This document shows, in pieces, positions 38,009 to 39,592 of a stretch of DNA of 64,000 nt (position 1 is the stretch's first letter; each line of letters begins with the position of its first letter). Position numbers and translations under genes: made by a program. The notes below the pieces were generated by a model. It made no database searches. It saw nothing but the letters and a program-made list of their open reading frames with translations, and was not told where the DNA came from. This DNA is from Planctomycetota bacterium. GTDB taxonomy: Bacteria; Planctomycetota; Planctomycetia; Planctomycetales; Planctomycetaceae. The stretch spans positions 1-64,000 of the forward strand of contig VGZH01000007.1 in assembly GCA_016872645.1 (NCBI GenBank), read 5' to 3'.

Positions 38009-39592
38009 ATGCCGTATGAAACCATGCGCTTTATCCATGCGGCGCGATTGTCGGTGGATCAACCGTTGGGCGATACCGGAGTCATCGCCCCGGACCTGCG
38101 CGGACTGACGCGCGACGCGACCACGCAAGCCTTTCGAAATCTCGTGGCGGCGTGCTTGGAGCGCGACGTCGATTTCTTGTTGCTCACCGGCGACACGCTG
38201 GAGCAATCCGATTACAGCATCAAGGCTCGTGTCGAGTTGCGACGCGGGTTTGAGCAACTCGACGATGCGGGCATCCAAGTCTTTCTTGTTCCCGGCAAGA
38301 GCGACCCGATCGCCGTCTGGGACGATTTTCCTGAACTCCCGGGCAACGTCACTGTTTTTCGTCCGGAAACAGATGATCCCGTCGCCGTGTTGCGAGACGG
38401 CTCGGTCATCGCTTCGATCCGGGCACTGAACTGGCGGCAACCGTGGTTTAACTGGGACGACGAAGAGCCACGCGCCGATCGCACGCAGCGCCGCAAAAAA
38501 GAAGCAGATGATGCGGAAAACTTGCTCGATAAGACCAAGCCGCAGACGAAGTCGCTGGGCGACGTTTCCGAACTCGACGACCAATCGCTGGACGGCCTCG
38601 ACGCGACCGACCTCGTAACTCCCGCGCGGCACGAAGCTCATCGTGAGATTCGCCGCGTGCAATCCCCTGCCGAATTGCGGCCGAATCATTTCGCCATCGC
38701 CATCGTGCGCGACGGTATCGATCAACCCGGCAACGATCCGCAGGCCGATTACCTGGCCGTCGTCGGCGGCTGTGAGCGAACGACCTCCAAGGGCGCGGAT
38801 TGGCTGATGCACTTTCCCGGCGGCACTCAAGGCCGCACGCCCGAAGAATCGGGTTTGCATGGCTGCTCACTGGTGGACCTCGACAGCGACGGCGTCATTC
38901 GCTGTCGATTCCTGCCGACTGCGCCGGTGCGCTGGGAGTCGTTTGAACTCGGCATCGATACCGACACGACTTTTCAGCAGTTGGTGAAGCGTGCACAAAC
39001 CGCTTGTCGAGAACTCTGCGGAGTCGAATCGAAGCCCGAACAAGGACGCCTCGTCGCCGAATACGGCGATGCCGCCGACGAGAAATCCGAAAAGGAATTT
39101 TCCCGTAGCCCGACCCCTTGTGGGTCGAAGGATTCTGTCGCCACGTCGAATCTCTCAGGCCACAAGGGCCTGGGCTACAGTGGAGCTCAAGCCTGCTTCC
39201 TGCGTTGGACGATCCGCGGCTATGGGCCGTTGTTTGAGGCCTTGTTCAAAGACGAAATGCAAACCGAGTTGATCGAGTGGCTCGATGACGATGTGCATTG
39301 GCCACTGGAAGTCGCGCGTCTGCACCGCATCCGCCTGATCGCCGCCGAACCACCCGTCACTCGCGCGGATGCGGACGATGAACAACTTGACGTTGCGACT
39401 GAATTCTTCTGGCGACTCGATCAGGCTCAACCGCTCGGCAACTCGGCGTGGAACGATCTCGGCGGAGATTCGTCGATCGAGCGCGAACACTTCGCGCGCA
39501 TTCAGGCGGCGAACGCCGCAGGAGACGCGGCAGTCGTCCTTGGCCTTGCTCGTTGCCGTGGTTGGAAATGGTTCCGAGCGGCAAGTACGTAA
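38009..39592 (+). CDS. YhaO/SbcD-like protein with degenerate active site
   Basis: 527-residue protein with the layout of a YhaO/SbcD/Mre11-type calcineurin-like phosphoesterase, directly upstream of the YhaN-like ATPase. The fold is visible (VDFLLLTGDTL, IQVFLVPGKSDP, DYLAVVGGCER), but the metal-binding motifs are altered. The first DxH motif (usually ADLHL) reads AARLSVD, GNHD/E reads GKSD, and the final GHxH region reads VVGGCERT. Only GD is kept. Nuclease activity is therefore doubtful. The stretch near residues 366-390 (SPTPCGSKDSVATSNLSGHK) is encoded by an inserted palindrome pair. The gap to the ATPase gene is about 60 bases. Confidence 0.72.
   Translation: MPYETMRFIHAARLSVDQPLGDTGVIAPDLRGLTRDATTQAFRNLVAACLERDVDFLLLTGDTLEQSDYSIKARVELRRGFEQLDDAGIQVFLVPGKSDPIAVWDDFPELPGNVTVFRPETDDPVAVLRDGSVIASIRALNWRQPWFNWDDEEPRADRTQRRKKEADDAENLLDKTKPQTKSLGDVSELDDQSLDGLDATDLVTPARHEAHREIRRVQSPAELRPNHFAIAIVRDGIDQPGNDPQADYLAVVGGCERTTSKGADWLMHFPGGTQGRTPEESGLHGCSLVDLDSDGVIRCRFLPTAPVRWESFELGIDTDTTFQQLVKRAQTACRELCGVESKPEQGRLVAEYGDAADEKSEKEFSRSPTPCGSKDSVATSNLSGHKGLGYSGAQACFLRWTIRGYGPLFEALFKDEMQTELIEWLDDDVHWPLEVARLHRIRLIAAEPPVTRADADDEQLDVATEFFWRLDQAQPLGNSAWNDLGGDSSIEREHFARIQAANAAGDAAVVLGLARCRGWKWFRAAST
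39105..39178. repeat. BIME-like inverted GTAG pair inside YhaO-like gene
   Basis: Plus-strand GTAGCC-CGACCC-CTTGT-GGGTCG at 39105 and minus-strand GTAGCC-CAGGCC-CTTGT-GGCCTG from 39178. Each is a perfect 6-bp hairpin with the same CTTGT loop and a GTAG head. The 19-base outer arms match at about 17 positions. The 74-base element is read in frame without a stop. Confidence 0.88.

Follow-up and report, generated by a model that had tools for sequence, protein, structure and literature searches.

A REPIN-like inverted REP pair read in frame, in a single codon phase, in genes of a planctomycete genus

Introduction

Repetitive extragenic palindromes (REPs) were named for being extragenic. The closest described systems are the REPINs, or BIMEs, of Pseudomonas and E. 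coli, which are dispersed inverted pairs of GTAG-headed hairpins associated with RAYT (TnpAREP), with the RAYT gene flanked by the same pairs and a CT dinucleotide beside GTAG (PMC3116915, PMC8266576). RAYT enzymes cut at CT, and it has been proposed that pairing with the A and G of GTAG selects this site (PMC8266576). Almost all such elements are extragenic; in P. fluorescens SBW25, 14 of 1,067 REP 16-mers overlap genes (PMC3116915). That GTAG REPs also occur within genes is already known. A 2013 description reports in its main text that they are found in UvrD, DnaE2 and other genes, most abundantly in Opitutus terrae, that intragenic GTAG REP dimers in ORFs encode 20-30 residues, often in replication/repair genes, and that the recB genes of two Xanthomonas species carry different REPs at roughly the same place (PMC3733652). 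The classic protein-coding palindromes are the Rickettsia palindromic elements (RPEs; reviewed in PMC2229807 and PMC10969869), which are 105-146 nt long (PMC2229807).

Here we describe a planctomycete element that has the design of the former and the genic habit of the latter. Like REPINs it is a dispersed inverted pair of GTAG-headed hairpins, although it has two heads with two stem types and one loop, and like RPEs it is a palindromic, apparently selfish DNA that lies in frame in numerous unrelated genes, is shared by different species and is read as what is probably a tolerated spacer peptide.

Results

Two inverted GTAG hairpins in a YhaO-like gene

The element lies in the window (the whole 64,000-nt stretch of DNA analyzed here) and its features are collected in Table 1. 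A sequence-only reading of this DNA had described two opposed GTAG-headed 6-bp hairpins with CTTGT loops, about 30 bases apart and read in frame in a YhaO-like protein. Direct reading confirmed the hairpins, the gap between the units measures 28 bases, and the frame was found intact in the ORF. Both 6-bp stems are perfect, the loops are identical and both heads are GTAG, so each unit has the tetranucleotide 5' to a short hairpin that is expected of a GTAG REP or REPIN. The window copy is preceded by CC at its GTAG end and followed by AG after its terminal CTAC.

Table 1. Coordinates of the element, its parts and its host gene in the window.
Feature	Positions	Strand	Description and basis
Host gene, YhaO/SbcD-like protein	38009..39592	+	527 aa, element in frame; ORF, congeneric orthologues
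Mobile element, REPIN-like inverted REP pair	39105..39178	+	74 nt, residues 366-390, peptide RSPTPCGSKDSVATSNLSGHKGLGY; best model R1 match of own genome, 85.7 bits
REP unit A	39105..39127	+	GTAGCC-CGACCC-CTTGT-GGGTCG (GTAG head, stem CGACCC/GGGTCG, loop CTTGT); direct sequence reading, pattern search
Spacer between REP units A and B	39131..39152		Edges GATTC/GAATC short complementary, ~12 variable bases between
REP unit B	39156..39178	-	GTAGCC-CAGGCC-CTTGT-GGCCTG (GTAG head, stem CAGGCC/GGCCTG, loop CTTGT); direct sequence reading, pattern search

The two units differ at six stem positions, which amount to exactly three compensating base-pair changes, and are otherwise identical; these three pairs are the best evidence that each unit has been under selection as a hairpin, as the sequences suggest. 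A degenerate GTAG-hairpin pattern matched the window twice, both times within the element, where 0.04 matches were expected by chance, and the stretch containing the element folds with a z of -4.9 relative to dinucleotide shuffles. Across the dispersed copies considered below, the edges of the spacer are conserved and its middle is variable, and no stem covariation was found among these copies when the two-hairpin and the long-hairpin forms were both tested. Copies therefore appear to decay after insertion, and because they carry no stem covariation after it, the evidence for the hairpins rests on the comparison of unit A with unit B.

The host protein gave no Pfam or NCBIfam match. Nine congeners have orthologues that are 74-83% identical to it along the full length, and in two more the identity is 59-70%; its gene lies upstream of one whose product matches AAA_27 and, weakly, SMC. 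It has IHAARLSVD and PGKSDP where IHxxDLHxD and PGNHDP are usual, which we take to be degraded metallophosphatase metal-binding motifs, and it may be a catalytically inactive protein of metallophosphatase appearance. In public records the nearest relatives are Planctomycetota MAGs. Three public MAGs with close relatives of the YhaO-like gene (L274, L275 and L278) carry the name Candidatus Kuenenia stuttgartiensis, apparently in error.

A dispersed family in the genome and genus

The window's own genome (G000; 5.76 Mb in 213 contigs) contained six exact matches to the head pattern, two of them in the window element, versus none for a reversed-pattern control; with up to two mismatches allowed, there were 55 matches versus 29 in the control. 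A covariance model (R1, E <= 1e-4, second-strand matches removed) placed the element at about 36 distinct places in this genome. Nine of eleven congeners also had R1 matches (17 to 148 raw, among the matches listed and with second-strand matches included), and weak matches were found in one of 40 other genera of the family that were sampled. Most of the searched assemblies were fragmented, and gene context was sampled rather than covered exhaustively. Complete units are mostly 72-75 nt, most commonly 74, and share their ends, and the majority pair an A head with a B head; the consensus of the dispersed copies runs GTAGCCCGACCCCTTGTGGGTCGGTnGATTC..GAATCAnCCAGGCCACAAGGGCCTGGGCTAC. The repeated unit is thus an inverted REP pair with a short spacer, present in many copies per genome, as in REPINs.

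Insertion into a variable linker

The sequence-only reading held that the element had moved into the gene, and had proposed looking for relatives without the peptide and for other copies in the genome. Both were found: all eleven congeneric YhaO-like orthologues are without the peptide at the window site, and these orthologues, together with the approximately 36 copies in G000, bear the proposal out. Measured from GACGAG to GCTCAAGCC, the linker is 102 nt in the window versus 57 nt in a congeneric orthologue (L055), a net gain of 45 nt (15 codons) for a 74-nt element, which leaves about 29 nt of the earlier linker replaced or lost. All congeners show variation in this linker. Insertion is not base-exact, with orthologues 10-25% diverged and flanking linkers that differ. 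The orthologue in the congener G010 has an independent copy of the element elsewhere in the linker, in the same codon phase. The element would have taken the place of part of this linker, and the insert would by now be translated spacer sequence in decay, giving no sign of having its own function.

One codon phase in both orientations

Full copies were sampled together with up to 1.5 kb of flanking sequence, and their coding signal was scored by a codon model trained on genes of the window and of relatives, which gave the right frame to about 94% of 150-nt pieces of the training genes. In a first set, from G000, G005 and G010, 27 of 89 distinct copies lay in a continuous coding-like frame (12 with unit A first and 15 with unit B first), and all 27 were read in phase 2, that is, X|GT AGC CC. 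The expectation of phase 2 was then put to a second set, 60 new copies drawn mostly from other congeners; 12 were in frame, six in each orientation and all in phase 2. Both sets together give 39 of 149 full copies in frame in genes, a proportion (about 20 of 38 in G010) that comes from the best-scoring copies and is not a genome-wide rate, and 39 of 39 in phase 2 in both orientations.

The TAG within GTAG stops phase 1. The other two phases are largely open, with stop-free readings in 135 of 178 for phase 0 and in 154 of 178 for phase 2, and no supported gene read the element in phase 0 among the copies examined. A Pfam domain was found in just one phase-0 frame (L025); there the element precedes the domain on its N-terminal side, in what may be an upstream extension of the frame. 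If the two open phases had an equal chance, the probability of 39 of 39 would be ~2e-12, and if they are weighted by the codon phase of CT in genes (62% phase 2) it would be ~7e-9; some copies are shared by descent, and with the safer figure of ~33 independent insertions it is still near 1e-7. We reject the codon phase of CT as a sufficient explanation of the rule, since it predicts a 62% share for phase 2 of the two open phases.

The two open phases encode different peptides. Phase 2 specifies a hydrophilic, disorder-prone linker (SP.PCG...HKG.GY; GRAVY -0.83, TOP-IDP 0.24) and phase 0 a less hydrophilic product (GRAVY -0.03, TOP-IDP 0.05). Selection on the host protein would be the simplest explanation of the phase rule, and the host proteins are presumably translated with the element in them.

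Host proteins and the persistence of inserts

Pfam domains were found in 33 of 36 scanned host ORFs. Among the hosts are MurD (in three species), PriA, UvrD, DNA polymerase III alpha, SecA, serine/threonine kinases and a polyketide acyltransferase, as well as CheA-like kinases, an RsmB-like methyltransferase and a Y-family polymerase. In several of them the insert falls inside the domain envelope, as in the MurD middle domain, the kinase, the UvrD helicase and the acyltransferase. Orthologues without the element were found for MurD (net +75 nt), an amine oxidase and the PKS acyltransferase.

Some inserts are common to species at the same codon: in the Y-family polymerase of G000, G010 and G007, the ParA-like protein of G003 and G007, the CheA-like protein of G005 and G006, and a molybdopterin oxidoreductase of G000 and G010. 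The regions with shared inserts in G000 and G010 have diverged by about 20% at the nucleotide level, so these inserts have persisted. In MurD the insert site is the same in G004 and G005, and that of G010 is a few codons away. Elsewhere, sites occupied by the element in G010 hold unrelated palindromic inserts in congeners.

Mismatches to the consensus at codon positions 1 to 3 were 5-6%, 10-11% and 8-9% in the in-frame copies and 8%, 11% and 10% at the same positions in the other copies. The in-frame copies thus have no third-position excess and no codon-level conservation of the peptide, and for want of that excess there is no sign that the peptide sequence matters.

The RAYT link

A RAYT gene in the genome had also been anticipated by the sequence-only reading. 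One clear RAYT is indeed present in G000 (NF047646, 187 bits, G000:C144), but it is another REPIN that flanks it, an inverted GTAG pair on each side of the same design and with a different loop, TCCC (GTAGGGTCGGCTCCCGCCGAC / GTAGGGCAGGCTCCCGCCTGC), whose pattern has eight matches in the genome; no RAYT flanked by the present element was found in the window's own genome. The same is seen for several congener RAYTs, each flanked on both sides by GTAG hairpin pairs of its own. On contig 11 of G010, and there only, a RAYT-like gene lies directly between copies of the present element. Its HUH and tyrosine-region motifs are recognizable (KPDHLHLM, YIVLNPVR) and it has one internal TAG. This interrupted copy is the only one so placed, no intact RAYT flanked by the element having been found in the genus, and the remnant has no close relatives in other genomes of the genus. 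The element copies on either side of the remnant (L144, G010:C11:29500-33000) form an A-A arrangement, both with CGACCC stems, versus the A-B units seen elsewhere.

The flanks of 89 copies are enriched for CT before GTAG and AG after CTAC (C 67%, T 56%, A 71%, G 69%), so the CT dinucleotide of REPINs is found beside this element too. Mobilization by a RAYT is the best reading of the sequences because of the GTAG heads, the CT/AG flanks and the G010 RAYT flanked by the element.

Discussion

We think it very probable that the element is a genus-level REPIN moved by a RAYT and surviving in genes as a tolerated translated linker. It would be a non-autonomous element of about 74 nt, made of two GTAG-headed REP hairpins in inverted order, and a RAYT (a REP-associated tyrosine, Y1/HUH enzyme) would recognize GTAG and the hairpin in single-stranded DNA and cut at CT. 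Copies would land both in genes and between genes, and those in genes would survive only if the net insertion keeps the frame and if the phase gives a hydrophilic, flexible linker or loop peptide. Could the copies have arrived by another route, such as template switching, gene conversion between resident copies or a DDE-type MITE? The junctions are inexact, and most of the genomes that carry the element lack a RAYT flanked by it, as such a route would allow; against it, the GTAG heads, the CT flanks and the copies flanking a RAYT fit RAYT chemistry, and neither target-site duplications nor longer terminal repeats were seen among 89 copies. We regard another route as unlikely.

A major question arising from the single codon phase is “What keeps the element in these proteins?” If the peptide had been domesticated as a useful linker or as a docking or regulatory peptide, then the phase rule would be a mark of function, and the inserts common to species at the same codon, including those that persisted over some 20% divergence between G000 and G010, would be in keeping with it. 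The mismatches of the in-frame copies, however, are not concentrated at third codon positions, the host genes are unrelated, and other species have no insert or an unrelated palindrome at the same site, all of which makes a useful peptide quite improbable. Nor do we give much weight to the idea that the element is kept chiefly as a regulatory RNA or DNA structure (an mRNA hairpin, an attenuator or a gyrase site) and is translated incidentally. The predicted hairpin is strong (the z given above) and REPs play such roles in other bacteria, according to the text of PMC3733652, but such a role predicts no single codon phase in both orientations and the copies show no covariation in either folded form, so that this explanation is very unlikely. 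That the pair is no mobile element but chance palindromes in an ordinary variable linker has next to no probability: the linker does vary in all congeners, but the two pattern matches far exceed the chance expectation, and the many complete units with the same ends at dispersed places in the genome refute it.

The in-frame copies are best read as tolerated selfish spacers in permissive linkers, much like RPEs. The likeness to RPEs had been suggested by the sequence-only reading from the window copy, and the suggestion is strengthened by 39 in-frame copies in one codon phase. In-frame insertion in many unrelated genes is shared with RPEs, whereas the length of 74 nt falls short of their 105-146 nt (PMC2229807) and GTAG heads and a RAYT link are found here; the element works like an RPE and is not filed as one, on a comparison of length, design and genic location.

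REPINs and BIMEs are almost all extragenic, whereas many of the best-scoring copies examined here, the window copy included, are in frame in genes. We do not treat extragenic location as defining, since the text of PMC3733652 counts intragenic GTAG REPs among the members of the superfamily. The Opitutus terrae-type intragenic REPs described there are of the same kind, although of a different sequence family and phylum. Relative to the main text of that paper, our study adds, for one family, the link to a RAYT, orthologues without the insert and an analysis of the peptide; a search of that main text by keyword returned no report of a single-phase rule for intragenic REPs. The strict codon phase, and the replacement of this family by other palindromes at the same sites across several core genes, may be new, since we did not find them described in the texts consulted; a phase rule may already be known for RPEs.

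What emerges is a REPIN family in frame in essential proteins (MurD, PriA, Pol III alpha and SecA) and obeying a single-codon-phase rule, a finding that connects the literature on RAYTs and REPINs with that on the protein-coding palindromes of Rickettsia. It makes testable the idea that selfish DNA uses protein linkers as a niche and supplies new linker sequence. Has the REPIN population itself been shaped for translatability in one phase in both orientations, with linkers as its regular habitat and families replacing each other between species? We can only speculate, and hold this to be possible but rather doubtful. If it is true that families replace each other at linkers, then such repeats would be a continuing source of new disordered linkers.

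Other palindromic families in the same genes

Several other inverted repeats were noticed in the course of the survey. One is a second palindromic family (GCGGCACGGCGCTAGCCGCCGGT and its complement), which several genes (L251, L258, L261, L266, L271, L237 and L092) read in frame as the peptide GTALAAG...SPVASAIPL; it occupies places in UvrD and a kinase where G010 has the GTAG element. In the replicative polymerase, DNA polymerase III alpha (L246, L250 and L252), purine-rich inverted repeats that differ from species to species fill the same linker. In the SNF2 helicase gene (L253 and L254) there is another GTAG REPIN family, GTAGCCACGTTCGCCAGAACGTGG, which is read in phase 0 (VATFARTWEEL) and occupies the same linker as the present element does in G010.
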